From: Lachnospiraceae bacterium
GTDB lineage: Bacteria > Bacillota > Clostridia > Lachnospirales > Lachnospiraceae
Direction of reading: 5' to 3'
DNA length: 64,000 bases
Assembly: GCA_022794255.1 (NCBI GenBank)
Contig: JAAWEL010000057.1
Coordinates: forward strand, 1 to 64,000
Shown here: positions 30,699 to 56,272 of the stretch, in pieces
Numbering within the stretch: position 1 is the first letter of the stretch
Layout of the letters: every line of letters starts with the position of its first letter
Program-made: the position numbers and the translations under genes
The notes under the pieces: model-generated
Databases searched by the model: none
The model's input: only the letters and a program-made list of their open reading frames with translations
What the model was told of the DNA's origin: nothing

Positions 30699-31431
30699 TA
30701 TAGAGATTCGGGATGATGAAAGAGTAGATGATCTTCAGCGAAATCATTACCAGATTATCCAAAAGAAGAAGGGATTCTGTTTTGGAATGGATGCAGTGCT
30801 TTTGTCAGGTTTTGTTCAAGTGCGAGAGGGAGAATGTGTGATAGATCTGGGTACAGGTACTGGAATCATTCCTATTCTTCTGGAAGCAAAGACAAAGGGA
30901 AAACATTTTACAGGCATGGAAATCCAGGAAGCTGTTGCAGAGATGGCACAAAGAAGTGTAGGTTTAAATGGTTTAGAGAAAAAGATAAGGATTGTGCAGG
31001 GAGATATAAAGGAGGCTTGCCGAATATTCGGCAAGGCTTCTTTTGACGTGGTGACTTCCAATCCACCTTATATGATAAACCAGCATGGCATGAAAAATCC
31101 AGATCCGATGAAGGCTATTTCCAGACATGAGATTTTCTGCACGCTGGAGGATGTGGTGAGAGAAGCGTCAATGCTTTTAAAGCCGGGGGGCCGTTTTTAT
31201 ATGGTACACAGGCCCAGACGTCTGACAGAGATTTTCTGTATACTGCATCAATATGGATTGGAAGCAAAGAGAATGAAAATGGTTCATCCCTTTGTGGATA
31301 AGGAAGCAAATATGGTGATGATCGAGTCTGTACGGGGAGGCGGTTCTATGATGAAGGTGGAAGCTCCGGTGGTGGTATTTCAGAAGCCTGGGGTATATTC
31401 GGATGAAATCCGCACCACTTATGGTTATTAA
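30691..31431 (+). CDS. TrmN6-like tRNA1(Val) adenine-N6 methyltransferase (YabB type)
   Basis: 246 residues. SAM motif I is VIDLGTGTGIIPILL, and the target-base motif is SNPPYM, the NPPY signature of N6-adenine or amino-group methyltransferases. It overlaps the end of ricT by 8 bases (start ATG at 30691), so translation is coupled. YabB proteins modify tRNA in related bacteria; the exact site here is inferred. Confidence 0.88.
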   Translation: MNDIEIRDDERVDDLQRNHYQIIQKKKGFCFGMDAVLLSGFVQVREGECVIDLGTGTGIIPILLEAKTKGKHFTGMEIQEAVAEMAQRSVGLNGLEKKIRIVQGDIKEACRIFGKASFDVVTSNPPYMINQHGMKNPDPMKAISRHEIFCTLEDVVREASMLLKPGGRFYMVHRPRRLTEIFCILHQYGLEAKRMKMVHPFVDKEANMVMIESVRGGGSMMKVEAPVVVFQKPGVYSDEIRTTYGY

Positions 31432-31472
31432 GATACTGCCTTTAAGAAAACAGGAAGGGGTATGGTAAAGAT

Positions 31473-32327
31473 ATGGATGGGAGAACAGGAAAGTTGTATC
31501 TGTGTGCAACACCGATTGGCAATCTGGAGGATATTACTTTTCGGGTTTTGCATACATTAAAGGAAGTTGATTTGATTGCGGCAGAGGATACGAGACATAC
31601 AATTAAGTTGCTGAATCATTTTGAGATAAAAACGCCTATGACCAGCTATCATGAATACAATAAGGTGGATAAGGCAAGACAGCTTGTGGATAAGATGCAG
31701 AGCGGTGTGGATATTGCATTGGTGACTGATGCAGGGACCCCGGGAATCTCAGATCCGGGAGAGGAGCTGGTACGGCAGTGTTATGAGGCAGGAATCCAGG
31801 TGACTTCTCTGCCAGGGCCTTCTGCCTGTGTGACAGCTCTCACACTTTCCGGATTGTGTACCAGAAGATTTTGTTTTGAGGCATTTTTGCCAGTGGATAA
31901 AAAGGAAAGGCAATGGATTCTCAATGAGTTAAAAGATGAAACAAGGACGATTATTATCTATGAGGCTCCTCATCATTTGGTTAGAACTTTAGGAGAACTG
32001 GGAGAGGTGCTTGGAATGGAACGGTCTGTCACTTTGTGCCGGGAGCTTACGAAAAAATATGAGGAGGCTTTTCAGACTACTTTTTTGGGAGCTCTGAATC
32101 GGTATAAATCAGAGGAGCCTAAGGGAGAATGTGTGATTGTAATTGAAGGAAGGAAAATTGCAGAAATACAAAAGGAGAAGAGAAATTTATGGGAGAATAT
32201 AAGTATGCAGGAGCATATGGATGTTTATTTAGATCAGGGAATCGAGAAAAAAGAGGCGATGAAAATAGTTGCTAAAGACAGAGGTATCAGCAAGAGAGAT
32301 GTGTATCAAATATTGATGGAGAAATAA
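31473..32327 (+). CDS. rsmI: 16S rRNA (cytidine1402-2'-O)-methyltransferase RsmI
   Basis: 284 residues of the tetrapyrrole-methylase fold. The signatures LYLCATPIGNLEDITFR, AAEDTRHT, VTDAGTPGISDPG and SLPGPSA are all intact. It 2'-O-methylates C1402 of 16S rRNA. It ends the yaaO-to-rsmI block; yabA and the GIY-YIG gene that lie between ricT and rsmI in Bacillus are absent here. A strong terminator follows. Confidence 0.96.
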   Translation: MDGRTGKLYLCATPIGNLEDITFRVLHTLKEVDLIAAEDTRHTIKLLNHFEIKTPMTSYHEYNKVDKARQLVDKMQSGVDIALVTDAGTPGISDPGEELVRQCYEAGIQVTSLPGPSACVTALTLSGLCTRRFCFEAFLPVDKKERQWILNELKDETRTIIIYEAPHHLVRTLGELGEVLGMERSVTLCRELTKKYEEAFQTTFLGALNRYKSEEPKGECVIVIEGRKIAEIQKEKRNLWENISMQEHMDVYLDQGIEKKEAMKIVAKDRGISKRDVYQILMEK

Positions 32328-32343
32328 GATGTGGATATTAATT

Positions 32344-32381
32344 AAGAAGGGCAAGGGTTTTTGATAACCCGCCCTTCTTTT
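32344..32381. terminator. bidirectional terminator
   Basis: Stem AAGAAGGGC ... GCCCTTCTT with inner GGGTT / AACCC, then T-run. It lies between convergent rsmI and the UPF0597 gene. Confidence 0.85.
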
Positions 32382-32397
32382 AGAATGATTTGATTTT

Positions 32398-33690
32398 TTA
32401 TGCCATCTGGTCTTTTTCTATCATGATATCCAGAATCGTCTTGTCAGTCTGAGTCATTCCCGGATTGCTCACTTTTCCCATATTGTGAATCGCCTGTTCC
32501 GGAGTGTAGCCGCATATTCCGTCTGTGGGTTGAAGAACCACATCTGACATAGCAAGGGAAGCGCACATCATGGAAGCATTTGTAGCGGTAGCCAGCTTTA
32601 AGGCGCAGCCGATTTTTCCTCCGTCACAGATCATACCAGTAAGATTTCCACTCATATTTATGATGGCATTGCCAATCTGTGTATCATTTCCTCCCATCAG
32701 CCATACGATAGCAGCAGCGGCAGCAGTGGCAGCTGACACTCCGCAGCCACAAGTGGCAGACAACTTGCCGGTGTACATTTTTATGTATACATTCAAGGTG
32801 TGAGAGAAAGCCAGAGCTTTTACCAGCTGTTCATTAGAAGAGCCCAGATGCTTTGCGATCTCCACCACTGGAATGATAGCTGTGATTCCATGATTTCCAC
32901 TGCCGGCGCTGCTCATAACCGCATAAGGACAACCGCTCATACGGCCTTCTGCACTGCCGGCCACTCGTACCATTATACGGCTGAAAAGGCTGTTTCCCAA
33001 AGCATTGTCATTTAACTGCTTTTGTAAGGAGGAGGCAATTCCAATTCCCAGAGAATGTTCAAGGCTGTAATCCGCCAGCTTTTCATTCATCTCTACTCCA
33101 TGAATCATATCTGCCAGTTCATCTTCTGTACATTGTTCGATTACTGTTTTGATTTCAGCTACAGTCATTGTCATCAGCTTTTCATGAATTTCATCATTGG
33201 AGCTGATGGAATATTCTTTTTGTAAAAGAATTTCATTGTTTTTCTTAGTAAAAATAATATTGGAATGAGTATTGCGGATCTCACTGATTCCAATTCCTGA
33301 GGTTGTAATAATCTCTGCTCTGGCATACAACTGAGTTTCATTGGGATTGATCATTACAATTACATGATGGTCCTCTACCAGCTTAATAGCATTCTGGCTT
33401 ACTTCTGGCGTGATATCTTCTAAAAGCTGTAGTTTTTTTTCAGGATTACCCAGGCAGGCACCTAAAGCTGCAGCATATTTTAAACCTACTTTTTCAAAAC
33501 CAGGGATGCCTACACTCATTCCATTTTTGTAAATTCCAGGATTTACTTCCATTTTTATGGATACAATATCTCCTCCGATTGCATGCCATGCATCTGCAGC
33601 GGCAAGAGCGATACATACAGGTTCTGTACAGCCAAGAGCCGGGACAACCTCCTGATGAAGTAGGTGTAATAATTCTGCTTTTGTGATCAT
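32398..33690 (-). CDS. UPF0597 / L-cysteine desulfidase family (CyuA/CdsB type)
   Basis: 430 residues, full length for the YhaM/CyuA family, related to iron-sulfur L-serine dehydratases. Conserved cysteines lie in ALGCTEPVC (N-terminus), [26 protein letters not shown] and [11 protein letters not shown]. The family turns L-cysteine into pyruvate, ammonia and sulfide; serine dehydration is an alternative. AAGGAG precedes the ATG. Its promoter is of the -24/-12 type, and it diverges from a sigma-54 activator. Confidence 0.85.
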
Positions 33691-33753
33691 ATGAAAACTC
33701 CTTCCTGATAATAATGAAATAATAAGTTCTGATTTTTTCTAATAATTAATATT

Positions 33754-33770
33754 AGCAAAAAACATGCCAA
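33754..33770 (-). promoter_or_regulatory. sigma-54 promoter of the UPF0597 gene
   Basis: The minus strand reads TTGGCATGTTTTTTGCT, matching YTGGCACG-NNNN-TTGCW at all but one of the fixed positions, with GG and GC in correct spacing. It lies about 64 bases before the start codon. Confidence 0.85.
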
Positions 33771-33889
33771 TTTTTGATTTTCCTGTTTTTGATAATTTTA
33801 GTCTGAAAGGAGAGAAAGAGGGTTGAAAAAGAGAAAAGAATATGGGAAAATGGTTATATTAAGAAAATAAAATAGGTTTATTATATAAA

Positions 33890-33898
33890 ATTGGTTAA
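33890..33898. promoter_or_regulatory. candidate activator half-site
   Basis: ATTGGTTAA, identical to part of the inverted repeat at 36013-36058, placed about 120 bases upstream of the -24 box of the UPF0597 gene: usual enhancer distance. Apart from this and the sigma-54 promoter, 33691-33945 holds only A/T-rich sequence. Confidence 0.5.
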
Positions 33899-33945
33899 AA
33901 ATAGAAATATAGACAAATTAAAAAAGAAAGGTAAAGGACAGGGGA

Positions 33946-36000
33946 ATGAAAAAGAAAAAAATCACAGTTATTTCTTTAGATCCCAGGGCAGGTGCTTCTT
34001 ATGCAGGAGAGATCAGAAGTTTATTCCAGGAGTATGCAGATATTTCTATGTTAAATGTGATGGACGGTTCAGCCATGGGAGTATTGGAGTGGGCAGATTT
34101 ATTTGTCATATCCACAGATGCTTACGGCTCAGCGGAGGAGGTGGGACGCCATGTTCCTATGGAATGTCAGACAATGGCAGTGGAGGTGTCTTTTCGATGG
34201 GCAGAGCTGCGGAAGTTAAAAGAGATTCCATCAGGAAAAAAAGTTTTGTTTGTAAATATGACTCAGACAATGGCCAGAGAAGCGATTGCCCAGTTAAATC
34301 AATTTGGTATCAACCATATTCAAATGATTCCTTTTTATCCTGGAGCAGTTTTGGAAGAGAATGTCCACATAGCAGTGACACCAGACGAGGTGCGGTATGT
34401 TCCTGATTCAATTGAGACAATTATTAATTTGGGGCAGAGATCTTGTACTTCCGGAATGATGATTGAGATTGCTCTGCGGCTTGAACTAGAGCATCTTCTT
34501 GAGACAGAAAAATTTAAAGAATATTTTCAGGCGATTGCTACTAATAATTACAGTTTTGATCAGATGTTCAGCCGCTCTATCCGATTGGAAAGCCAGTTCC
34601 ATATTTTAATGGAAATTTTGGAGGATGGTATTATTGGGGTAAATGAGAAGGGAGAGATATTTGCCTGCAATAATCATGCAGAGGAGATTACAAAGGTTAA
34701 TTCTCCATTGATAATAGGAAAAAGATGCGATGAGGTTTTTTCTTATATACCTTTTTTGAAATGTCTGCTGGAAAAAAAGACGGTTCCGGCAAAGATCATG
34801 AAGATCAATGGAGTGAATGTTAGTGTGGAAATTATTCCTGTATTACGGCAGGAAAATTGTATCGGGGCATTTGCAAGACTTCAGAAGTTTAATGAGATGG
34901 AGGTACGTCAGAATGAGCTGCGCAGTCAGCTTATGAGTAAAGGCCATGTGGCAAAATACAGCTTTGATGATGTGATTGGAGAATCAGAGGCAATAAGGAA
35001 AACAAAGTCTGTTTTGAAACGGATGGCTGTCAGCGAAAGTCCCATCCTTTTGATCGGGGAAACAGGAACAGGAAAGGAATTGTTTGCCCATGCAGTTCAT
35101 CAGGAATCAAAAAGAAAAGATGGACCGTTTATTGCCATTAATGTTGCTGCAGTGCCAGAAAATCTTTTGGAAAGCGAATTGTTTGGATATGAAGAGGGAG
35201 CTTTTACCGGAGCAAAAAAGGGAGGGCGCCCTGGACTTTTTGAATTTTCTCATAAGGGAACCTTGTTTTTGGATGAGGTGGAAGGCATGAGTCAGGCTCT
35301 TCAGATAAAGCTTCTTCGTGTTCTTCAGGAAAGGGAGATTATGAGAGTAGGAGGCAACCGTGTGATCAAGATTGATGTGCGGATTGTTGCTGCCACTAAT
35401 GAATCTCTGGAAGAAAAAGTGGAGGAAGGAAGTTTTCGAAGAGATTTGTACTATCGTTTGAATACCCTTCCTATTATGATTCCCACTCTGGCAGAAAGAG
35501 GAGAGGATATGTTTTTGATTATTGAGAGCATGCGAAAGGAGCTGGGAGGGAATTTTGTATTAACAGAAAGTGTGAAGGATTTTCTCAGAGATTATTCCTG
35601 GCCGGGAAATATACGGGAACTGAGAAATGTGGTGGAATATTTTGCCTACACAGGACAGGAAAAGATTACAATGGATGAGCTTCCTCCTACAGTATTTCGA
35701 AACAATTCTGTTCGGATCCATTCCGTTGCGGAGAAGAAAACAGAGACAGAGGAAGAATCAGAGGCTTATTGGTTTGTTTTGGACCAGCTTTATCAGGCAT
35801 CTGAAAAACACATGTCCATTGGAAGAGAGAGGATCCTGGCTGAGGCAAAAGAGAGATATCTACCGGTATCCCAGAAGGAAGTGAGAGATATTTTAACCGA
35901 TATGGCCAGACAAGGCCTGGTTTCTGTGGGAAGAGGAAGAGGAGGGAGTCGGCTGATGCCGGAAGGAAGAAATCTGTGGGAGAGGCATCAAAAAAGCTGA
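33946..36000 (+). CDS. sigma-54-dependent transcriptional activator (CdsR-like role inferred)
   Basis: 684 residues. Residues 1-200 form an N-terminal sensory region of unclear type (PrpR-N-like in outline). A PAS domain is at about 215-325. The AAA+ domain has Walker A GETGTGKE (371-378), the sigma-54 contact loop GAFTGA (418-423) and Walker B GTLFLDEV (438-445). The C-terminus (about 605-684) looks like a winged helix rather than the usual Fis-type HTH. It lies between two transcription units that both carry -24/-12 promoters. I recall a comparable regulator, CdsR, tied to cysteine desulfidase in Clostridioides difficile. Confidence 0.9.
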   Translation: MKKKKITVISLDPRAGASYAGEIRSLFQEYADISMLNVMDGSAMGVLEWADLFVISTDAYGSAEEVGRHVPMECQTMAVEVSFRWAELRKLKEIPSGKKVLFVNMTQTMAREAIAQLNQFGINHIQMIPFYPGAVLEENVHIAVTPDEVRYVPDSIETIINLGQRSCTSGMMIEIALRLELEHLLETEKFKEYFQAIATNNYSFDQMFSRSIRLESQFHILMEILEDGIIGVNEKGEIFACNNHAEEITKVNSPLIIGKRCDEVFSYIPFLKCLLEKKTVPAKIMKINGVNVSVEIIPVLRQENCIGAFARLQKFNEMEVRQNELRSQLMSKGHVAKYSFDDVIGESEAIRKTKSVLKRMAVSESPILLIGETGTGKELFAHAVHQESKRKDGPFIAINVAAVPENLLESELFGYEEGAFTGAKKGGRPGLFEFSHKGTLFLDEVEGMSQALQIKLLRVLQEREIMRVGGNRVIKIDVRIVAATNESLEEKVEEGSFRRDLYYRLNTLPIMIPTLAERGEDMFLIIESMRKELGGNFVLTESVKDFLRDYSWPGNIRELRNVVEYFAYTGQEKITMDELPPTVFRNNSVRIHSVAEKKTETEEESEAYWFVLDQLYQASEKHMSIGRERILAEAKERYLPVSQKEVRDILTDMARQGLVSVGRGRGGSRLMPEGRNLWERHQKS

Positions 36001-36012
36001 TAATAGAAAAAG

Positions 36013-36058
36013 TTGACCAATTAACCAATTTAACCTAAAATATTGGTTAATTGGTCAA
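36013..36058. promoter_or_regulatory. perfect 17-bp inverted repeat, candidate upstream activating site
   Basis: Arms TTGACCAATTAACCAAT (36013-36029) and ATTGGTTAATTGGTCAA (36042-36058) pair perfectly round a 12-base loop. A further AACCAAT half-site follows at 36067-36073. No T-run follows, so enhancer use is favoured over termination. The -24 box is about 170 bases downstream. The rest of 36059-36226 is A/T-rich without a gene. Confidence 0.75.
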
Positions 36059-36226
36059 ATTCAAGCAACCAATTTATTCTTATTTTGCTTTGTGATTGAT
36101 CAAAACAAAGAAAAAAGTTCAAAAAATTCAAAGAGAGACTATTTTATCTAGTAAAAATCCCATTGAAATAGAAAAAATCTGCAAAAAATACAAATAAAAA
36201 TATAAATTTAAGGTTCAAAGAGAGTT

Positions 36227-36243
36227 TTGGCATGGTTTGTGCA
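36227..36243 (+). promoter_or_regulatory. sigma-54 promoter of the C-S lyase operon
   Basis: TTGGCATGGTTTGTGCA fits YTGGCACGRNNNTTGCW with two mismatches and correct GG-to-GC spacing. It lies 58 bases before the start codon of the first gene. Confidence 0.82.
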
Positions 36244-36300
36244 TTATAAAGAGGCATAAGGCAAAAAGAGATGGTCAGATGCTAAAGCAGGAAAATAAAA

Positions 36301-37494
36301 ATGGAAAGGAAGAGTGCGGATATGAAGTACGATTTTGATCAGGTAATTGATCGCAGCAAAAACAGAGCAGCAAAATATGATGAGCGGGTGAAAAAATTTG
36401 GAACAGAGGATGTGATTCCTTTATGGGTAGCGGATATGGATTTTCGCACAGCTCAGCCAATTATTGATGCTTGCCGTCAGAAGGCAGAGGAAGGAATCTG
36501 GGGATATACATCCAGGCCGGACAGTTATTTTGAATCCGTAAGAAATTGGGAAAAGAGAAGAAATAACTGGGAGATTGATACTTCCCTGATGAGCTGGAGT
36601 CTTGGAGTGGTACCTGCCTTATCGGCAATTGTAAAAGTATTTAGCGAAGAAAATGATAAGGTAATGATTCAGACTCCTGTGTATTCTGAATTTTATGATG
36701 TGACAGAGGCATGGGGCCGTCAAGTAGTGGAAAATCCTATTGTGGAAAAAGATGGGTGCTGGACAATTGATTTTGATGATTTTGAGAAGAAGGCAAAGGA
36801 GGTAAAGATTTTTCTTCTTTGTAGTCCTCACAATCCCTTGGGAATCGTTTGGAAGAGGGAAGAGCTGGAAAAAATGGCAAAAATTTGTATAGAAAATGAT
36901 GTGTTGCTGGTTTCTGACGAGATTCATTCGGATTTGATATTTAATGGAAAGAAACACATCCCCACAGCTTCATTGTCTTTGGAGATTCAGTCAAAGGTGA
37001 TTTCCTGCGTATCAGCCACAAAGACTTTTAACCTGGCAGGAATTCAGGCCTCCACAACGATCTTTCCTAATAAGGAAATGAAGGATAGGTATGACAGATT
37101 TTGGATGAATATGGATATTCACAGAAATAATGCATTCAGCTCTGTGGCTATGGAGGCAGCCTACAATGAGGGAGAGGAATGGTTGGAACAGCTTTTGGAA
37201 TATCTTTCTGGGAATTTTAAATTTATTAAAGAGTATTTTGAGAAATATATCCCGGAAATCAAACCAAATATGCCAGATGCCACCTATCTGGTATGGCTGG
37301 ATTGCAGAAAGCTGGGGATGGATAACGAAAGCCTGAGAAGATTTATGATCGATAAGGCAAAGTTAGGATTGAATGAAGGGAATACCTTTGGCCGAAGCTT
37401 AAATGGATATATGCGCCTCAATGCTGCTTGTCCCAGAAGTGTTCTGGAAAAAGCATTAGGACAGCTTAAGGATGCAGTACACAGCCTGAGATAG
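36301..37494 (+). CDS. PatB/MalY-family C-S beta-lyase (aminotransferase fold)
   Basis: 397 residues, fold-type I PLP enzyme. VIPLWVADMDFRTA and GIWGYTSRPDSYF near the N-terminus and the PLP lysine in SATKTFNLAGIQ are the marks of MalY/PatB cystathionine or cysteine-S-conjugate beta-lyases, which release pyruvate, ammonia and a thiol. SPHNPLG binds the cofactor. Two starts are possible: 36301 (AGGA upstream) and 36322 (MKYDFD, AGGAAG upstream), the latter closer to homologues. It is the first gene of the sigma-54 operon. Confidence 0.88.
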   Translation: MERKSADMKYDFDQVIDRSKNRAAKYDERVKKFGTEDVIPLWVADMDFRTAQPIIDACRQKAEEGIWGYTSRPDSYFESVRNWEKRRNNWEIDTSLMSWSLGVVPALSAIVKVFSEENDKVMIQTPVYSEFYDVTEAWGRQVVENPIVEKDGCWTIDFDDFEKKAKEVKIFLLCSPHNPLGIVWKREELEKMAKICIENDVLLVSDEIHSDLIFNGKKHIPTASLSLEIQSKVISCVSATKTFNLAGIQASTTIFPNKEMKDRYDRFWMNMDIHRNNAFSSVAMEAAYNEGEEWLEQLLEYLSGNFKFIKEYFEKYIPEIKPNMPDATYLVWLDCRKLGMDNESLRRFMIDKAKLGLNEGNTFGRSLNGYMRLNAACPRSVLEKALGQLKDAVHSLR

Positions 37495-37550
37495 AAAAGA
37501 AATAAGAAATAGTAAAAGCCAAAAAATAATACATTTACAGGAGAAAGAAA

Positions 37551-38801
37551 ATGGATAAGAAAAAATTATGGGACAATTATAAATTTCCATTGATTTTGCT
37601 GGGAGGCATTATCATTGGCGCTATTGTAGGGCTTATTATGGGGGAGAAGGCATCTGTTTTTGAGCCTTTGGGGCAGATCTTTTTAAATCTGATGTTTACA
37701 ATCGTGGTACCTATGGTATTTGTGTCAATCACCACTGCTGTGGGAAATATGCTGAATATGAAAAGGCTGGGAAAGATCCTGGGGAGTTTGGTTCTGACCT
37801 TTGTGGTAACAGGCTTGTTTGCAGCGGCTTTGGTGTTGGTTGTGATAAATATATGGCCCCCGGCAGCAAATACTACTATAGCAATGGGAGCAGCTGAGAT
37901 GGAGGAAGCTTCTAACATCAGCGATATGATTGTGGGATCTTTGACGGTTAATGATTTTTCCGGGCTGATGAGCAGAAGTAATATGCTTCCTATCATTGTG
38001 TTTGCCATTATGTCTGGCTTGGCAGTGGCATCCTGCGGGGGACAGGAATCTCCGATTGGGAGAATTTTAAACAATTTGAACGATGTCATTATGAAAATGG
38101 TTGATATGATCATGAAGCTGGCCCCCATTGGTCTTGGTGCATATTTTGCAAATTTGGTAGGAGAATTTGGTCCTCAGCTTATAGGAGATTATGGGCGTAC
38201 TATGGTGATCTATTACCCGATGTGTGCAGTATATGTGCTGGTATTCTTTCCTTTGTACAGTTATTTTGCAGGAGGAAAGCTGGGAATCCGCAGAATGGTA
38301 AAATATATTTTTAATCCCGCTGTCACTGCTTTTGCAACCCAGAGTTCAGTGGCTACACTTCCGGTAAATATGGAAGCTTGTAAGAAAATTGGGGTACCAG
38401 AGGATATAAGCAATATTGTTCTTCCAATGGGAGCTACTATGCATATGGATGGTTCCGTGTTGTCATCGATTACAAAGATTGCTTTTTTGTTTGGGATTTT
38501 TCAGATGCCTTTTGTCGGAATTGATACATATGCAATGGCAATTGTGGTTTCTATTTTAAGTGCTTTTGTCCTTTCTGGGGCGCCTGGAGGCGGACTTGTG
38601 GGAGAGATGCTGATTGTCAGCTTATTCGGATTTCCAGCAGAAGCCTTTCCATTAATTGCGACCATAGGATTTTTGGTAGACCCGGCAGCTACCTGTCTGA
38701 ATGCGTCAGGTGATACGATTGCATCTATGGTGATTACCCGGCTTGTGGAGGGCAAGGATTGGTTGGAAAAGAAAATGGCAACAGGGCAATTGGCAGATTA
38801 A
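37551..38801 (+). CDS. DAACS-family amino acid:cation symporter, probably neutral amino acid or cystine
   Basis: 416 residues, the glutamate-transporter fold. The hairpin-1 motif is TQSSVATLP, followed by MGATMHMDGS and the hairpin-2 SGAPGGG. The TM8 motif reads VDPAATCLNASGDT. Aligned with GltPh, the equivalent of Arg397, which binds the side-chain carboxylate of Asp/Glu, is Ala, while Asp394, Thr398 and Asn401 are kept. This argues against an acidic substrate. Given the neighbours, cysteine, cystine or serine are candidates. AGGAG precedes the ATG. Confidence 0.87.
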   Translation: MDKKKLWDNYKFPLILLGGIIIGAIVGLIMGEKASVFEPLGQIFLNLMFTIVVPMVFVSITTAVGNMLNMKRLGKILGSLVLTFVVTGLFAAALVLVVINIWPPAANTTIAMGAAEMEEASNISDMIVGSLTVNDFSGLMSRSNMLPIIVFAIMSGLAVASCGGQESPIGRILNNLNDVIMKMVDMIMKLAPIGLGAYFANLVGEFGPQLIGDYGRTMVIYYPMCAVYVLVFFPLYSYFAGGKLGIRRMVKYIFNPAVTAFATQSSVATLPVNMEACKKIGVPEDISNIVLPMGATMHMDGSVLSSITKIAFLFGIFQMPFVGIDTYAMAIVVSILSAFVLSGAPGGGLVGEMLIVSLFGFPAEAFPLIATIGFLVDPAATCLNASGDTIASMVITRLVEGKDWLEKKMATGQLAD

Positions 38802-38837
38802 ATTTAAGACAAAATATATAGAAAAAGGAGATAAAAA

Positions 38838-39206
38838 ATGAATGTGATTGAGACAAAGAAGGCACCAGGCGCTATTGGACCATATTCTCAAGGTTTTGAG
38901 ATTCATGGTGTTGTTTACACTTCAGGACAGATTCCGGTAAATCCGGAGAGCGGTAAGATTCCTGAGGGAATAGCTGCTCAGGCAGAGCAGAGCTGTAAAA
39001 ATGTGGGAGCAATTCTTGAAGAAGCAGGGACAGGATTGGATAAGGTATTTAAGACTACATGTTTTTTGGCTGATATGGAAGATTTTGCAGAATTTAATAA
39101 AATATATGCAGAGTATTTTGTGTCAAAGCCAGCCAGAAGTTGTGTGGCAGTAAAGAGCCTGCCAAAAGGAGTTCTGTGTGAGATTGAAGCGATTGCTGTA
39201 AAATAA
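38838..39206 (+). CDS. ridA: RidA family enamine/imine deaminase
   Basis: 122 residues. GAIGPYSQG near the N-terminus, the catalytic Arg in PARSCVAVKSLPKG and CEIEAIAV at the end are typical of RidA (YjgF/YER057c/UK114). It hydrolyses 2-aminoacrylate released by PLP lyases and cysteine/serine eliminases, which fits its place with the C-S lyase and desulfidase. AAGGAG lies upstream, 36 bases after the symporter. Confidence 0.95.
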   Translation: MNVIETKKAPGAIGPYSQGFEIHGVVYTSGQIPVNPESGKIPEGIAAQAEQSCKNVGAILEEAGTGLDKVFKTTCFLADMEDFAEFNKIYAEYFVSKPARSCVAVKSLPKGVLCEIEAIAVK

Positions 39207-39227
39207 CAGGAAGGACGGTTGTCAGAT

Positions 39228-40874
39228 ATGAAAGTGCTGATCGTAGGCGGTGTAGCCGGCGGAGCCGGCACAGCTGCCAGACTGAGGAGAAATGATGAGA
39301 AGGCAGAGATTATCCTTTTGGAGAAGGGGCCTCATATTTCCTATGCCAATTGTGGTTTACCTTATTATGTTGGAGGGGTGATTCGGGAAAAGGAAAAGCT
39401 TCAGCTTCAAACACCGGAAAGCTTTCACAACCGTTTTCGGGTGGATGTAAGAACAGGACATGAGGTGGTTTCGGTAAATTTGGAAAAGCAGATGGCTGTG
39501 ATTACCTCGGAAGAAAAAACTTATGAGGAGAGCTATGATAAGCTGGTGCTTTCTCCGGGAGCAGAACCAATCATTCCACTTGTGCAGGGAATTAAGGAGA
39601 ATGAGGATCATATTTTTACTCTGAGAAATGTAGAAGATTCTTATAGAATCTATGATTATATTGAAGAGAAAAAGCCAAAATATTGTGCGGTGATCGGAGC
39701 CGGATTTATCGGGATGGAGATTGCAGAAAATCTTTTTGAAAGAGGGATTTCTGTGTCTATTATTGAAGGAGCTGACCACGTAATGCCGCCTCTGGATATC
39801 GATATGTCTCACCGGATCCACAATGAGATACGTAGCCGGGGAATTGAGCTATATCTGAAGAAGATGTGCAGCGGAATAGAAGAGGATCATCTGGTCTTAA
39901 GTGATGGAACCAGGGTAAAAGCAGATTTGGTGATTTTAAGCATTGGTGTCCGTCCGGCTACCGGATTTTTAAAGGACAGCGGGATTGCTTTGGGGCATAG
40001 GGGAGAAATTATTGTCAATGAATATATGGAAACATCTCACCAGAATATTTATGCATTGGGAGATGCGGTGGCCGTTTCTCATGTGGTAAACGGTCAGAAG
40101 GTTTTGATTCCCCTTGCATCTCCGGCAAATAAACAGGGGAGGATTGTGGGAGACAATCTTTGCGGAAAGCGCTGTGCCTATAAGGGAAGCCAGGGAACCT
40201 CCATTATGAAGTTTTTTGATCTGACAGTGGCAGTTACCGGAGAGAAGGAAGAGAGTCTTAAGTCCCAGGGACGTTCTTATGGAAAGATATTTACAGTATC
40301 AGCTTCCCATGCCGGATATTATCCGGGAGGAAGTCAGATGTATATTAAAACTTTGTTTGAACCAGAGAGCGGCAGGATTTTAGGAGCGCAGATTGTTGGG
40401 AAGGATGGGGTGGATAAGAGAATTGATCTGTTGGCCAATGCGGTTCGTTTTGGGCAGACCTGCTATCAGCTTCAGGAGGAGGAGCTGTCCTATGCCCCGC
40501 CGTTTTCTTCCGCTAAAGATCCGGTAAATATGGTTGGATATGTAATTGAGAATGTCCTGGAGGGAAAGATGAATCCCTATTATATAGAGGATGTGGAGAA
40601 CATTCCGGAAAATGCAGTTTGTCTGGATGTCCGGAAAAAAGAGGAATATGATAGCGGTCATATTCCTGGTTATCAAAATATCCCCTTGGATGAATTGCGG
40701 GAGCACTTAGAAGAAATCGACCAATCAAAGGAGATCTATCTGACTTGTCAGATTGGTTTAAGAGGTTATCTGGCTCAGTGCATCCTGGCTCAAAACGGGA
40801 TTGAGACAAGAAATCTTTCGGGAGGATATGCTCTATGGAAGGAGATGGACCAGGACAGAAATACAAAAGTGTAA
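39228..40874 (+). CDS. CoA-disulfide / persulfide reductase with C-terminal rhodanese domain
   Basis: About 548 residues. The FAD-binding motif VGGVAGGAGTAARLRR is followed by YANCGLPYYVGG, whose Cys is the redox residue of CoA-disulfide reductases. NADH-binding VIGAGFIGMEIAENL is next, then a dimerisation domain. The C-terminal ~90 residues are a rhodanese domain with active Cys in LTCQIGLRG. This fusion is known as an NAD(P)H persulfide/polysulfide reductase family. ATG at 39228; an in-frame TTG at 39219 is also possible. It starts 21 bases after ridA. Confidence 0.9.
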   Translation: MKVLIVGGVAGGAGTAARLRRNDEKAEIILLEKGPHISYANCGLPYYVGGVIREKEKLQLQTPESFHNRFRVDVRTGHEVVSVNLEKQMAVITSEEKTYEESYDKLVLSPGAEPIIPLVQGIKENEDHIFTLRNVEDSYRIYDYIEEKKPKYCAVIGAGFIGMEIAENLFERGISVSIIEGADHVMPPLDIDMSHRIHNEIRSRGIELYLKKMCSGIEEDHLVLSDGTRVKADLVILSIGVRPATGFLKDSGIALGHRGEIIVNEYMETSHQNIYALGDAVAVSHVVNGQKVLIPLASPANKQGRIVGDNLCGKRCAYKGSQGTSIMKFFDLTVAVTGEKEESLKSQGRSYGKIFTVSASHAGYYPGGSQMYIKTLFEPESGRILGAQIVGKDGVDKRIDLLANAVRFGQTCYQLQEEELSYAPPFSSAKDPVNMVGYVIENVLEGKMNPYYIEDVENIPENAVCLDVRKKEEYDSGHIPGYQNIPLDELREHLEEIDQSKEIYLTCQIGLRGYLAQCILAQNGIETRNLSGGYALWKEMDQDRNTKV

Positions 40875-40957
40875 AAAGACAAAGAAACAGCTGTATAGGT
40901 GCAGCTTCCGAAAAAAAATCATTATAATTTGTGGAAAAGAAAGAGAGGATATGAATC

Positions 40958-41218
40958 ATGAAAGTTACTGTTATTGGAAGTCATCTGTGTCCGGATACTC
41001 TGTATGCTCTGAATCAGCTGGTGGCAAAAAAAGCTGATATTGATTTTAAAAATCTGTCAGCAAGCCTGCCGGATCTTAAGGTTTATTTGGCTCAGAGAGA
41101 GGGAAATTCTTTATATGAGGCTGTGAGAGAAAAAGGAGGAATTGGGATCCCATGTTTTGTGATGGAAGATGGGAATACCACACTGGATTTAGATGAGGTG
41201 TTGAACATTTTGGGATAA
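40958..41218 (+). CDS. small glutaredoxin-like protein with single-Cys CPDT motif
   Basis: 86 residues with a thioredoxin-type beta-alpha-beta outline: KVTVIGSHLCPDTLYALNQL, then IPCFVMEDG with the cis-Pro. The catalytic site is C-P-D-T. It resembles the small family I recall as UXX-star (seleno)proteins, in which this Cys is often selenocysteine; here the codon is TGT. It sits last in the sulfur operon, 83 bases after the reductase, with AGAGAGG upstream. Partner of the reductase is a reasonable guess. Confidence 0.8.
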   Translation: MKVTVIGSHLCPDTLYALNQLVAKKADIDFKNLSASLPDLKVYLAQREGNSLYEAVREKGGIGIPCFVMEDGNTTLDLDEVLNILG

Positions 41219-41273
41219 AATATAATTATTATTGAAAAATAAGGTGTTAAACAATATAAAATCTAAATATGAT

Positions 41274-41311
41274 CCGGGGATCTAAGACAGGTTCCCGGTT
41301 TTGTTTTTTTT
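41274..41311 (+). terminator. terminator of the sulfur operon
   Basis: Stem CCGGGGA / TTCCCGG, 11-base loop, then TTTTGTTTTTTTT. Confidence 0.8.
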
Positions 41312-41434
41312 AGAATATTGACATAATTTTAAGCACTTGTTACAATAGTATATAAGGTGAAATATCGTTTATTTAAAAGAATCTATGATGTATAACACAG
41401 AATGACCATTACAGAATTCAGGGAGGAACGAGGG

Positions 41435-44400
41435 ATGTATCATTGCCATATTCAATTCTATTTGGTAGGCAATCATGGCAGGGTATTTGATATAGTAAAG
41501 GAAATGCCTCCGCTTGAGAATTTTACACATGATTTTTTTGAAAGTAAAGAGCCGGACAATAATCTGGTAGCTGAAGCAGACGTGATTCTGGCTGATTTTC
41601 AAAATATGGATGTGAAAAAGGCGTTTCAGATATTGATATCGGGTAAAAGGGACAAGACCGAGATTATTTTGCTTGTTAATGAAAACCAGATAGTACTTTT
41701 GGAAAATGAAGAACTGGCAATGATTAAGGATATATGGACAATGCCCATGTCCGGAGAAGAGATAAAATTCCGTTTTTTCAGATGGCAGCAGATTTATAAA
41801 ATGAGCAAGGATTTTTGGCAGACAAATCATTATTTGGAGGCTGCAATCAATAATGTTCCCAATCTTGTCTGGTTTAAGGATAAGGATGGGGTACATGAGA
41901 AGGTAAATGACAGTTTTTGCAAAACGGTTAATAAAACCAAGAAGCAGGTAGAAGGGCGCAGACATGCTTACATATGGGACGTAGACCAAGATGATCCTGC
42001 CTGTATTGAATCAGAGAAAGAGGTTATGACAAAGAGGCAGACCTGTGTATCAGAGGAGACTATTAAAACAGGAGAAGGGATACGCCTTCTTACCACATAC
42101 AAATCTCCTTTATATGATGTTGATGGAAGTGTAATGGGAACAGTAGGTGTGGCCATTGATGTGACGCAGGAGCGGGCCTATGAGCAGGAGATTGTAGAAA
42201 AAAACCGGACTCTGGAAACGATTTTCACTACAATGGACTGTGGAGTAATGTGCCATACCATAGATGGATCACGGATAATCAGTGTAAACCGGGCTGCTCT
42301 TAACATTTTGGGATATGAGTCCCAGGAAGAAATGATAGCAGATGGATTTGATATGGTAGCCACTTCGGTATTGGACGAAGATAAAGAGAAACTGCGGTCA
42401 TGTATTATGGAATTGAAAAAGGAAGGAGACAGTGTAAGCGTAGAGTACAGGGTCCGCAAAAAAAACGGGGATATTCGGCATGTTATGGGCAATGTTAAGG
42501 TTTTAAGGGAAAAGGGAGCGCTTCTTTATCAACGCTTTCTTCTAGACTGTACGGCCCAGAAGTTACAGGAAAAGGAAAATGAAAGACGCCATATGGAGCT
42601 GATCCATGCCTTAAGTATTGATTATAATCTGGTTTGTTTTTTTGATCTTAGTACTGGAAATGGAATGTCTCTTAGAATTGATGAGGACAGAGATAAAATA
42701 TTTAGTTCTGTTTTTTCCGGAAATATCATATTGGAAAAATGTATGGAGCAATATATAGAGAGATTTGTCTATGAGGAGGATAAAGAACTTCTGAGAGAGA
42801 TATTTTCTAAAGAAAATCTTGAAAAAGAGCTGGAGAAAAAGAAGCAGTATTATGTAAATTACCGCATTGTGAATGACAATGAAATGAAGTATTTCCAGAT
42901 AAAGGTAGTACGTGCGGGAAAATGGGACAGAGGTCATGGTATTGTTTTAGGAATCCGCAGTGTAGATGAAGAAATCCGCAATGAGATGGAGAAGAAAAAT
43001 CTCCTGGAGGATGCACTTTTACAGGCAAATCGGGCAAATAAAGCAAAGAGTGTATTTCTCTCTAATATGTCTCATGATATCCGTACACCCATGAATGCAA
43101 TCGTGGGCTTTACTGCATTGGCTATGACTCACAGTGATAAGAAAGATCAGGTGGAGGAATATTTGGGAAAGATTATGACATCCGGAAATCATCTTCTTAG
43201 CCTGATCAATGATGTTTTGGATATGAGCCGGATTGAAAGCGGAAAAATGCATCTTGAGGAAAAGCCATGTCGTTTGCCAGATATTCTCCATGGCCTTCGG
43301 AATATTGTGCAGGCAGATATCCATGCAAAACAGCTTGAGCTGTATATAGACACGGTAGATATATTGGATGAAGATATTTATTGTGATAAGCTTCGTCTGA
43401 ATCAGGTATTGCTAAATCTTCTGAGCAATGCAGTGAAGTATACTGGAGCAGGTGGAATCATCAGCATAAGAATCGCAGAAAAACCAGGAGCACCAGCTGG
43501 TCATGCCAACTACGAATTTTGTATTAAAGATACAGGTATTGGTATGAGTCAGGAATTTTTATCTCATATTTTTGAACCCTTTGAGAGAGAGAAAAATACT
43601 ACGATTAGCCGAATCCAAGGTACTGGTCTTGGAATGGCTATTACAAAAAATATTGTGGATATGATGAATGGTTCCATTGAGGTGAAAAGTGAGGAGGGAG
43701 TAGGGACAGAGTTTATTGTTTCTTTCACATTCCGTTTGAATAAGGAGGAGAAAGGACCCCAAGATATTCCGGAACTTAAAAACTGCAGAGCTTTGGTTGT
43801 GGATGATGACTTTAATACCTGTGACAGTGTTTCCTACATGCTTGGTCAGATTGGAATGAGGGCAGAGTGGACCTTGTCAGGAAAGGAAGCGGTGTTGCGC
43901 ACCCATCAGGCAGTTATGCGGGGGGATGCATATTGTGTATATATTGTAGACTGGATGCTTCCAGATATGAATGGTATTGAGGTGGCTCGCAGAATCAGGA
44001 AAGAGATGGGTGAGGATGTTCCGATTATAGTATTGACTGCATATGATTGGTCAGAGATTGAGAAGGAGGCAAAGGAGGCAGGTGTTACAACCTTCTGCAG
44101 TAAACCTTTGTTCTTGTCAGAGCTGAGAAGCTGTCTGTATTCGATTGTGAATGCAGATGAATCGGAGCGTGAAGGGGATAATCAGAAGATCAATCTGCCT
44201 ACAGGACGGATTTTATTGGCAGAGGATAATGAGCTGAATCAGGAGATTGCGGTGGAGCTTTTAAGCGATGCAGGCTTTACCACAGATGTTGCAGAAAACG
44301 GCCAGGTTGCAGTGGAGATGTTGAATAAATCAGAACCTGGATATTATCAGCTGATTCTTATGGATATCCAAATGCCGGTTATGAATGGTTATGAGGCCAC

Positions 44401-44578
44401 AAAGATTATACGAAATCTGGATAACCGGAAGCTGGCATCCATACCGGTTTTGGCCATGACAGCCAATGCCTTTGAGGAGGATAGGCAGGAGGCTTTGCGA
44501 AGTGGAATGAATGGCCATATAGCAAAACCTATTGATATTGGGAAATTGTTTGACACTTTAGGGAAAATATTAAAATAA
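41435..44578 (+). CDS. hybrid sensor histidine kinase with two receiver domains
   Basis: 1047 residues from the ATG at 41435, which has GGGAGG upstream; an ATG 33 bases earlier has none. The N-terminal ~110 residues look like a degenerate receiver. PAS modules follow (NNVPNLVWFKDKDG, and about 245-375), plus a third less clear one. HisKA shows NMSHDIRTPMNAIVGF, and the ATPase has the N box LLNLLSNAVKYT and G boxes DTGIGM and GTGLGM. Two receivers end the protein (IVDWMLPDMNG and LMDIQMPVMNG). No transmembrane segment is evident, so it is probably cytoplasmic. No separate output protein lies nearby. Confidence 0.93.
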   Translation: MYHCHIQFYLVGNHGRVFDIVKEMPPLENFTHDFFESKEPDNNLVAEADVILADFQNMDVKKAFQILISGKRDKTEIILLVNENQIVLLENEELAMIKDIWTMPMSGEEIKFRFFRWQQIYKMSKDFWQTNHYLEAAINNVPNLVWFKDKDGVHEKVNDSFCKTVNKTKKQVEGRRHAYIWDVDQDDPACIESEKEVMTKRQTCVSEETIKTGEGIRLLTTYKSPLYDVDGSVMGTVGVAIDVTQERAYEQEIVEKNRTLETIFTTMDCGVMCHTIDGSRIISVNRAALNILGYESQEEMIADGFDMVATSVLDEDKEKLRSCIMELKKEGDSVSVEYRVRKKNGDIRHVMGNVKVLREKGALLYQRFLLDCTAQKLQEKENERRHMELIHALSIDYNLVCFFDLSTGNGMSLRIDEDRDKIFSSVFSGNIILEKCMEQYIERFVYEEDKELLREIFSKENLEKELEKKKQYYVNYRIVNDNEMKYFQIKVVRAGKWDRGHGIVLGIRSVDEEIRNEMEKKNLLEDALLQANRANKAKSVFLSNMSHDIRTPMNAIVGFTALAMTHSDKKDQVEEYLGKIMTSGNHLLSLINDVLDMSRIESGKMHLEEKPCRLPDILHGLRNIVQADIHAKQLELYIDTVDILDEDIYCDKLRLNQVLLNLLSNAVKYTGAGGIISIRIAEKPGAPAGHANYEFCIKDTGIGMSQEFLSHIFEPFEREKNTTISRIQGTGLGMAITKNIVDMMNGSIEVKSEEGVGTEFIVSFTFRLNKEEKGPQDIPELKNCRALVVDDDFNTCDSVSYMLGQIGMRAEWTLSGKEAVLRTHQAVMRGDAYCVYIVDWMLPDMNGIEVARRIRKEMGEDVPIIVLTAYDWSEIEKEAKEAGVTTFCSKPLFLSELRSCLYSIVNADESEREGDNQKINLPTGRILLAEDNELNQEIAVELLSDAGFTTDVAENGQVAVEMLNKSEPGYYQLILMDIQMPVMNGYEATKIIRNLDNRKLASIPVLAMTANAFEEDRQEALRSGMNGHIAKPIDIGKLFDTLGKILK

Positions 44579-44582
44579 ATAC

Positions 44583-44634
44583 AATCCCACAGGAAAAGAG
44601 AATGTTGAAAAACATCAATTCCTGTGGGATTTTT
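44583..44634. terminator. bidirectional terminator
   Basis: Perfect 13-bp stem AATCCCACAGGAA / TTCCTGTGGGATT with a 23-base loop and a T-run. It lies between the kinase and the convergent GntR gene. Confidence 0.9.
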
Positions 44635-44637
44635 GAT

Positions 44638-45321
44638 TCAGTCATTTCCCATCTTTTCTCCTGAACTGACCGAAGCAAGATTTTCGCGATTCAAAAGCAG
44701 TTCAAAGGTGGCATTTTTAGATTGGAGCAGATGCTCATACATGGCATCTGCTGCTGCCTTCCACTCTTTTTTTATACATGCCTTTATGATGGCCAGATGC
44801 TCATTTCTGGTATCCTCCAAACGCTGTTCCGCTCTTTGGCCGGTAATGATGCGGAAGCGTTGGTTCTGATTATTGATAATTTTGAAATATTCCTGTATAT
44901 AGTGATTGGGTACGGCACTGTTAAGAAAGCTGTGGAAGTTATCATCTAATATAAAAAAGGTTTTCGCATTCTGAGTGATATCTAATCGCAAAAGATTCTG
45001 ATAGTAATCTAAAAGAATTCTCTCATCCAGCGTATAGCCGTAGTTTCGAATACTATAAGGTTCCAGCAAAAGGCGCAGTTCAAAAATATTATTCACTTCA
45101 GAAATAGAGAGACTGGAAACCACAATCCCTTTTTTAGAACGGATGGTAACAAGACCTTCCTGCTCTAAGCGGCTCAGGGCATCTCGAATGGGAGTCCGGC
45201 TTACATGAAAGGTTTCGCAGAGAACGGCTTCATTTAAATGCATACCAGGAGCATATTCACAATTGAGAATCTTTTCCTTGATATTGTCGTAGGCTTGGAC
45301 TTTCAAGCTTTTTTTTGTCAT
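44638..45321 (-). CDS. GntR-family (FadR/FCD) transcriptional regulator
   Basis: 227 residues from the ATG at 45319-45321, preceded by AGGAGG; longer forms without a ribosome site are less likely. An N-terminal winged helix (YDNIKEKILNCEYAPGMHLNEAVLCETFHVSRTPIRDALSRLEQEG region) precedes an all-helical FCD domain with metal-type residues in DDNFHSFLN, NEHLAII and MYEHL. FCD regulators usually sense organic acids. It is divergent from the dehydrogenase-transporter locus, its likely target. Confidence 0.92.
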   Translation of the reverse strand: MTKKSLKVQAYDNIKEKILNCEYAPGMHLNEAVLCETFHVSRTPIRDALSRLEQEGLVTIRSKKGIVVSSLSISEVNNIFELRLLLEPYSIRNYGYTLDERILLDYYQNLLRLDITQNAKTFFILDDNFHSFLNSAVPNHYIQEYFKIINNQNQRFRIITGQRAEQRLEDTRNEHLAIIKACIKKEWKAAADAMYEHLLQSKNATFELLLNRENLASVSSGEKMGND

Positions 45322-45634
45322 GCCAAAAAACCTCCTCAGGTACAATTTGGATGTTGTTATGAATCCATTATAGATGAAATAAGGGAAAAAACCAAGGGAG
45401 ACGAGACAATTCAAAAAAAGAAATTCACTTCATATTGGATACAATAAAGTGAGAAGAGATGATGTAAAAGGATAAAACAAGGGAAGAAAAACTAAAAAAT
45501 TAGATGAATGTTATAAAAAAGACAATAAAAAACAAATAAAATAGTGAAAATATCAAGAAAACTATTGACAATTATAAAAAAATCATATACATTATGATGT
45601 ATACAACATGAAATATAAAGGAGCAATAAGGGCT
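45322..45634. promoter_or_regulatory. divergent control region of the GntR gene and the dehydrogenase locus
   Basis: No gene in 313 bases. TTGACA (45565-45570) with TACATT 17 bases on is a promoter candidate for the rightward operon. Two similar near-palindromes lie here: ATTGGATACAAT (45434-45445) and TGTATACA (45598-45605) just after that promoter. Both resemble YTGTATACAR-type operators of FadR-subfamily regulators. Confidence 0.5.
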
Positions 45635-55771: not shown

Positions 55772-56272
55772 ATGGAAGATATGAAGAAACGGATGGACTA
55801 TATTTCCTGGGATGAATATTTTATGGGAGTGGCGGATCTGTCAGGAAAACGTTCCAAGGATCCCAACACACAGGTAGGTGCATGCATTGTGAGTCAGGAT
55901 AATAAGATCCTTTCCATGGGATATAATGGATTTCCCAGAGGATGTTCGGATGATGAATTTCCCTGGGGAAAGGATCAGGAAAATTCGGATCCTTACAGTG
56001 CTAAATATTTGTATGTTACTCACAGTGAATTGAATGCGATCCTGAATTATCGGGGAGGGAGCCTGGAAGGGAGCAAGCTGTATGTGACTTTGTTTCCCTG
56101 CAATGAGTGTGCCAAAGCGATCATCCAGGCAGGAATCAAGACTGTAATTTATAAGGAGGATAAATACCAGGATTCTCCGTCAGTGCGGGCGTCAAAGAGA
56201 ATGTTGAATGCAGCAGGAGTGCGTTATTATCAATATGAACTGTCAGGAAGAGTTATTAAAATTCAGGTATAG
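55772..56272 (+). CDS. dCMP deaminase family protein (ComEB type)
   Basis: 166 residues. Zinc motifs HSELNAIL and PCNECAKAII are the catalytic His-x-Glu and PCxxC of the deoxycytidylate deaminase family. It makes dUMP from dCMP for thymidylate synthesis. AGGAGG lies before the ATG. DPNTQVGACIV and NGFPRGCSDDEFPW are family-typical substrate-side blocks. Confidence 0.93.
   Translation: MEDMKKRMDYISWDEYFMGVADLSGKRSKDPNTQVGACIVSQDNKILSMGYNGFPRGCSDDEFPWGKDQENSDPYSAKYLYVTHSELNAILNYRGGSLEGSKLYVTLFPCNECAKAIIQAGIKTVIYKEDKYQDSPSVRASKRMLNAAGVRYYQYELSGRVIKIQV

Follow-up and report, generated by a model that had tools for sequence, protein, structure and literature searches.

For gut anaerobes, degrading cysteine is an important route to sulfide. 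In C. difficile, experiments have placed the cysteine desulfidase gene cdsB under the control of sigma-54 and an activator that responds to cysteine (PMC5767170, accessible part). Here we analysed a 64,000-nucleotide stretch of a Lachnospiraceae bacterium genome (GenBank assembly GCA_022794255.1, contig JAAWEL010000057.1, positions 1 to 64,000 of the forward strand), hereafter the window. In it, the ORF (open reading frame) list places seven intact frames at 32398-41218, encoding a desulfidase, an activator and the five products of a lyase operon. We propose that this locus is probably a sigma-54-dependent regulon for breaking down cysteine and its small, neutral derivatives. The sequence supports a real, conserved sulfur amino acid regulon, and co-regulation of the desulfidase gene and the lyase operon is well supported as a prediction. 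The features of the locus are as follows:

32398..33690, minus strand: CdsB/CyuA-type L-cysteine desulfidase of the SDH_alpha fold (PF03313, E 1.3e-55), divergent from the activator gene
33754..33770, minus strand: predicted sigma-54 -24/-12 promoter of the desulfidase gene, site TTGGCATGTTTTTTGCT, an exact match to TTGGCAYNNNNNTTGCW
33823..33851, plus strand: predicted sigma-70-type promoter of the activator gene (TTGAAA, 17-base spacer, GAAAAT, with TG before the -10), overlapped by a half-site
33849..33896, plus strand: two predicted enhancer half-sites, AATGGTT (33849-33855) and ATTGGTT (33890-33896), between the desulfidase promoter and the activator gene
33946..36000, plus strand: sigma-54 activator (bacterial enhancer-binding protein) with an N-terminal bilobed domain, a PAS domain, an AAA+ domain with GAFTGA and a C-terminal winged helix
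36010..36073, plus strand: predicted lyase enhancer, an ACCAAT inverted repeat and a half-site at 36067-36073
36227..36243, plus strand: predicted sigma-54 promoter of the lyase operon, TTGGCATGGTTTGTGCA, one mismatch
36301..37494, plus strand: pyridoxal phosphate (PLP)-dependent C-S lyase of the PatB/MalY family (TIGR04350)
37551..38801, plus strand: SDF-family cation symporter, predicted to carry neutral substrates (PF00375, E 1.9e-101)
38838..39206, plus strand: RidA enamine/imine deaminase (TIGR00004, 162.4 bits against a cut-off of 106.25)
39228..40874, plus strand: coenzyme A (CoA)-disulfide/persulfide reductase-rhodanese fusion (Pfam/NCBIfam domains, nearest solved chains, both cysteine motifs)
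40958..41218, plus strand: 86-amino-acid glutaredoxin-like protein with a monothiol CPDT motif (operon linkage and motif)
41274..41298, plus strand: probable intrinsic terminator ending the operon (10-pair stem and T tail)

The predicted co-regulation begins with the two promoters. By count alone the window was unconvincing: five matches to the promoter pattern with at most one mismatch were found against 2.14 expected, and 10 of 100 shuffles reached five, which is no more than chance. We therefore tested promoter conservation across loci by searching 250 bases of sequence upstream of malY (20 loci) and of cdsB (8 loci) for YTGGCAYNNNNNTTGCW. Upstream of malY, a site with at most one mismatch was found in 16 of 20 loci and one with at most two in all 20 (window included); in locus L048 an exact site lies beyond the 250 bases, and the one counted there is probably due to chance. 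Upstream of cdsB, seven of eight loci, the window among them, had a full match and the eighth had two mismatches. The opposite strand of these regions served as a control: 0 of 28 regions had a site with at most one mismatch and 2 of 28 had one with at most two. The first-pass annotation of this DNA, made from the sequence alone, had proposed two -24/-12 promoters; one is exact, the other has one mismatch, and both proved to be conserved across loci. The evidence for them is their position together with this conservation. Across the whole genome the pattern had 118 matches against 24 for a reversed control, and the genome encodes two sigma-54 proteins (rpoN at G000:C59:49343-49819 and 105946-106404) and five full-strength activators. 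A further exact match lies elsewhere in the window at 56099-56115 on the minus strand (TTGGCACACTCATTGCA).

Both promoters are accompanied by candidate activator-binding sites, in agreement with the shared enhancer motifs that had been claimed on first inspection. Using the half-site motif AACCAWT/AWTGGTT, defined after viewing the sequences, we counted 66 half-sites over 25 intergenic regions, where shuffles gave an expectation of 6.4; in 19 of the 25, the count was matched by fewer than 5% of shuffles. This count left out L044, L051, L052 and L097, and of regions longer than 500 bases, other than L042_m, only the last 500 were used. In the window, two half-sites lie between the desulfidase promoter and the activator gene (0.19 expected; equalled by 0.8% of shuffles) and three in the lyase enhancer region (0.22 expected; 0 of 500 shuffles), where the inverted repeat at 36010-36061 has 20-nucleotide arms that are 95% complementary. 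A search for tandem half-sites across the 87%-complete genome gave 8+8 matches against 7+7 for the control, of which only the pair at 36016-36055 was meaningful, and it yielded no further regulon member above control. The regulon may therefore be confined to the locus at 32398-41218; the first-pass annotation's word 'complete' stands to that extent, as it rests on a null result in a genome of that completeness. Matches to a sigma-70-type promoter were at chance level across the whole region. With a pattern written after inspection, a sigma-70-like site with a 16-18-base spacer precedes the activator gene in all eight divergent desulfidase/activator regions. In the window a half-site overlaps the -10 of this site, which suggests that the activator may repress its own gene where it activates cdsB.

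We then compared the gene neighbourhood across genomes. Of 24 genomes from the genus, 12 had activator orthologues (at least 54% identity), counting the window's own genome and one with a partial orthologue; a thirteenth genome (G022) had only a fragment, which was not used. In the family sample they were found in 7 of 397 genomes, again including the window's own. In a tree of 62 activators of at least 600 amino acids, 20 formed one clade (support 100/100). Together with L051 (partial activator) and L096 (no ORF of at least 600 amino acids), which are outside the tree and the residue counts, these make 22 clade loci, window included. Among the 22, malY was present in 20, the SDF symporter (at least 60% identity) in 16, the CPDT redoxin in 13, RidA in 10 and the CoA-disulfide reductase (CoADR) in 10 (6 at or above 60% and 4 at 36-40% identity); one locus, L097, stops at a contig edge. 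Genes for uptake, C-S cleavage, RidA, reductase and redoxin around one activator are thus conserved across species, as a neighbourhood comparison suggested at first pass has now established. Genomes G004, G005 and G011 each have two clade activators. A scan of contigs keyed on generic AAA motifs returned at least 80 loci, mostly other activators, and only L101-L104 were used. L101, from an Oscillibacter metagenome-assembled genome (an Oscillospiraceae bin), has the set without a CoADR match in the available stretch and in the tree falls among members of the genus and family, reflecting either horizontal transfer or a binning error.

Intergenic gaps of 56, 36, 21 and 83 bases separate the lyase, symporter, RidA, CoADR-rhodanese and redoxin genes, which apparently form one operon. 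The family assignments of the first-pass annotation were upheld by Pfam and NCBIfam models, save that of the 86-amino-acid protein, for which no model matched at E 0.01. The chemistry of the lyase, desulfidase, RidA and reductase is taken to be that of their families. Over 421 aligned columns the desulfidase shares 34% identity with E. coli CyuA, and both proteins have four cysteine motifs in common (GCTEP, SA.C, ICDG and CA.K), whose cysteines we take to be cluster ligands; the desulfidase scored 22.5 bits with the iron-sulfur serine ammonia-lyase alpha model, against a cut-off of 243.2. The lyase scored 473.3 bits with TIGR04350 (cut-off 340) and carries SATKTFNL, presumably the PLP lysine motif; its nearest solved chains are 4dgt, a putative PLP transferase, and PatB (6qp3). 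The CoADR-rhodanese protein, starting at the ATG at 39228, has pyridine-nucleotide disulfide reductase and rhodanese domains by Pfam/NCBIfam, and its nearest solved chains are 3icr (CoADR), followed by 3nta and its variants and then 8a56 (CoA-persulfide reductase). It reached 496.3 bits with the CoA-disulfide reductase equivalog TIGR03385, below the cut-off of 578.8. These matches support its assignment to the CoADR-rhodanese fusion type.

The symporter bears on the substrate. It is only 26-27% identical to GltP, TcyP and SstT, and it retains the Asp and Asn residues that bind the substrate's amino and carboxyl groups. In transmembrane segment 8, the window protein and nine orthologues have DPAAT, compared with DMART in GltP and DMGRT in TcyP, so that the Arg lying three residues beyond the Asp is replaced by Ala. 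This Arg position sets selectivity for acidic versus neutral amino acids, according to the accessible parts of PMC12036983 and PMC12668577. By what is known of the family, the Ala tells against dicarboxylates, glutamate or cystine as substrates and favours cysteine or an S-substituted cysteine that is neutral. It also makes a dicarboxylate inducer less likely, as far as the sequence can be read. We considered a dicarboxylate or cystine carrier and rejected it as the likely assignment on the ground of this residue, with a caveat from an aspartate transporter to which we return below.

The 86-amino-acid redoxin is distinguished by its active site. Where a dithiol glutaredoxin has CxxC, the window protein has CPDT, and CPDT was found in all 14 operon-linked copies (13 in the clade and L236) and in 0 of 21 unlinked relatives, the latter being sampled from the class and lacking, within 1.5 kb, any of the six other genes. 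All 21 unlinked redoxins have Cys at the fourth position, and at the first they have Cys (17) or an in-frame TGA (4: L270, L272, L273 and L275, from genomes G559, G613, G555 and G624). The in-frame TGA suggests that these four are selenoprotein members of a small family, and, as it points to selenocysteine, it would identify the first residue as the one that reacts. That the operon-linked redoxin has lost the second thiol is consistent with a role as a sulfur carrier. A sequence search of the PDB with this protein gave 10 matches, none of them a redoxin, which we took as chance.

The activator has the elements of a sigma-54 enhancer-binding protein: an AAA+ domain (PF00158, E 1.1e-68) with a Walker A motif (GETGTGKE at 371) and GAFTGA at 418, and a C-terminal DNA-binding domain, which matched a winged-helix model. 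Its N-terminal domain had no Pfam match; PF06506 (PrpR_N) was tried and was weak. The first-pass annotation had likened the system to the sigma-54 regulator of C. difficile desulfidase, and this likeness failed at the level of the activator, since CdsR is PAS-AAA-Fis and the window protein has a winged helix and an extra N-terminal domain. No Fis-type end (PF02954) was found in the window activator at E 0.01. Of 14 activators near other desulfidase genes, 13 were of the Fis type and the remaining one was cut off; PF02954 was detected at E 0.01 in all 10 that were tested, 8 of them above the Pfam cut-off. The winged-helix profile matched 19 of 20 clade members, 0 of 13 Fis-type activators and 41 of 42 relatives outside the clade. 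In a tree of AAA domains, made from 21 of the 42 non-clade and 11 of the 20 clade activators and drawn with an arbitrary root, the 13 Fis-type rows (98/92) and the 11 clade rows (100/99) fell on separate branches; the Fis-type branch included two other activators of the window genome, and CdsR itself was compared by description. We therefore rejected assignment to the CdsR type, given the missing Fis end, the winged helix, the extra N-terminal domain and the separate branch. The sigma-54 wiring of cysteine desulfidase is, to judge from these sequences, rebuilt here with a different type of activator. The same N-terminal domain was found on activators from 32 of the 391 genomes sampled across the class, often on several in one genome (60 matches including the window's own, of which 40 stretches were retrieved). 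The neighbours of such activators (among them L224, L233 and L251) include transporters of the DcuC and Na+/H+ antiporter families, M20 peptidases and, in Peptoclostridium, iorAB.

From these observations we infer how the regulon may work, including co-expression, DNA binding, substrate, inducer, the persulfide role and autorepression. A low level of activator would be made from its own sigma-70 promoter and would bind the ACCAAT half-site clusters upstream of the two sigma-54 promoters. Detection of the amino acid, or of sulfur products formed from it, by the N-terminal/PAS sensor would lead the activator to open both promoters. The symporter would then import the substrate, the PatB-type lyase would cleave S-substituted cysteines at their C-S bonds, and cysteine itself would be cut by the Fe-S desulfidase. 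The predicted products of both enzymes are pyruvate, ammonia and sulfide or a thiol, formed via aminoacrylate, which RidA would clear. Persulfides arising on the way would be reduced by the CoA-reductase/rhodanese, probably with the CPDT redoxin. Half-sites over the -10 of the activator gene would provide autorepression.

Several observations weigh against this proposal. The lyase promoter of the window departs from consensus in its -12 part (TGTGCA), and the promoter count in the window is at the chance level given above. Six of the 25 intergenic regions lacked significant half-site enrichment, one of these (L101_m) having been mis-cut so that its last 500 bases lie inside malY and counted as zero. 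Sequence does not reveal the substrates of SDF carriers with certainty, and the best solved chain for the symporter is a reconstructed ancestral aspartate transporter (E 1.8e-62) that has the Arg. A divergent, close CdsB (at least 60% identity) was found in only 8 of the 22 loci, and six further loci (L045, L047, L049, L095, L096 and L098) had a CdsB-like paralogue of 28-35% identity. The clade members L048, L050 and L052 have a second version of the set, made up of malY, CoADR-rhodanese and genes for an AbgT-type transporter and an M24 peptidase, assigned by Pfam on L048 and by clustering on the others; as the AbgT-type transporter and M24 peptidase replace the SDF symporter there, the substrate may differ. 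Of the three CdsB paralogues that were aligned, L047a retains the first GCTEP cysteine, which is missing from L047b and L049a.

The distribution of these genes raises the possibility that the regulon is directed at cysteine S-conjugates or at dipeptides containing Cys (mercapturates of dietary or host origin, or the Cys-Gly type) and not at free cysteine, with the lyase as its core and the desulfidase as a later addition. No partner is more constant than the lyase gene malY (20 of 22 loci); paralogous copies within the genus combine it with AbgT and M24 peptidase genes, and it occurs in 6 of 46 loci with activators outside the clade, CdsB being in none of those six. The window itself has an SDF transporter and a divergent close CdsB with an exact sigma-54 promoter, however, and 32398-41218 contains no peptidase gene; we consider this explanation unlikely, if a serious one. 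L211, from a sister of the clade, has the same malY/AbgT/M24/CoADR-rhodanese type of operon, as if for Cys-containing peptides or conjugates. A catabolic regulon for serine- or alanine-type amino acids, with an incidental link to sulfur, would accommodate the SDH_alpha family, RidA and the neutral-looking symporter, and RidA and SDH_alpha proteins do also serve serine. It is very improbable, given the low score of the desulfidase with the serine ammonia-lyase model, the lyase's passing of the PatB model, and a CoADR-rhodanese and CPDT redoxin that have no evident role in serine use.

Two residues of the activator favour a different view, in which the locus is primarily a response to persulfide or sulfide stress, induced by reactive sulfur rather than by an amino acid. 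Cys167 in the sensor domain and Cys305 in the PAS domain were found in all 20 clade members and in 0 of 42 activators outside the clade, and the CoADR-rhodanese and CPDT redoxin would fit such a response. Yet the operon should make sulfide and not merely remove it, a CoADR relative is present in only 10 of 22 loci, about 30 other activator positions are equally clade-specific, and L211 (with its malY, AbgT-type, M24 and CoADR operon) lacks both cysteines; we regard a stress response as quite improbable. The last two observations also count against reading the cysteines as a simple sensor, and because of L211 they are a weak marker of sulfur operons. Also doubtful, at the outer edge of what we would propose, is that a separate winged-helix lineage replaced a Fis-type, CdsR-like activator in governing cysteine desulfidase and became a direct thiol or persulfide sensor through Cys167 and Cys305, with an operon-specific CPDT redoxin shuttling sulfane sulfur to CoADR-rhodanese; the tree, with its arbitrary root, gives no direction for any such swap. 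The activator cysteines and the redoxin CPDT motif are leads and not proof, and C167, C305 and the CPDT cysteine are residues that can be tested. Catabolism of cysteine and its small neutral derivatives remains our preferred reading.

Around the locus, the terminator-like count for the whole region (7, against 7.6 by chance) was at background, and an Rfam search of 31000-45500 found no family at the gathering score. Directly downstream of the operon, 41402-44578 encodes a 1058-amino-acid protein that by eye resembles, we presume, a hybrid sensor kinase with PAS and receiver domains.

Among described systems, the CoADR-rhodanese and CoA-persulfide reductases (3icr, 3nta and 8a56) share domain order and both cysteine motifs with the window fusion, which differs in lying beside C-S lyase and desulfidase genes, in its predicted sigma-54 control and in scoring below the TIGR03385 cut-off. 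CyuR, which controls cyuPA in E. coli, is an Lrp/AsnC-type regulator, the importer there is of a different type, and we know of no sigma-54 activator of cyuPA. The two systems have in common a desulfidase with its own importer and, in E. coli, activation that depends on cysteine (PMC11408624, accessible part). DVU0151 of Desulfovibrio vulgaris, compared by description, is likewise a one-component sigma-54 activator with an N-terminal region of unknown type and a predicted winged helix in place of Fis; it targets a transport operon and has GAFSEA where the window activator has GAFTGA (PMC4641369, accessible part). Together with the relatives outside the clade that match the winged-helix profile, the window activator marks a class of sigma-54 activators with a winged-helix end and a sensor domain unmatched in Pfam, found near varied transport and amino acid genes. 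In the full-text literature, with subscription papers mostly outside the search, no report of this gene set under sigma-54 was found among the matches listed. The XcyR group of Nie et al. 2019 is a predicted case of sigma-54 control of malY in Clostridiales, including Lachnoclostridium, and the window has the corresponding arrangement, a sigma-54 promoter on malY beside the activator gene. By its description, the listed XcyR target is malY-pepT-hyp, under 'peptide degradation', and the accessible part of PMC6615313 names no desulfidase, symporter, RidA, CoADR or redoxin. A close likeness is to CdsR-SigL-cdsB of C. difficile, which also has a sigma-54 promoter and a dedicated activator with PAS and AAA+ domains and GAFTGA (PMC5767170; Nie et al. 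2019, Table 1; accessible parts). In those sources CdsR is PAS-AAA-Fis and cdsB alone is its listed target, whereas here we find an added N-terminal domain, a winged helix and an extra five-gene operon; that operon accords with the early remark that this version is broader than that of C. difficile. The locus therefore presents known sigma-54 wiring on a new type of activator and with more parts, for which the likely binding site and the co-regulated genes can now be named.

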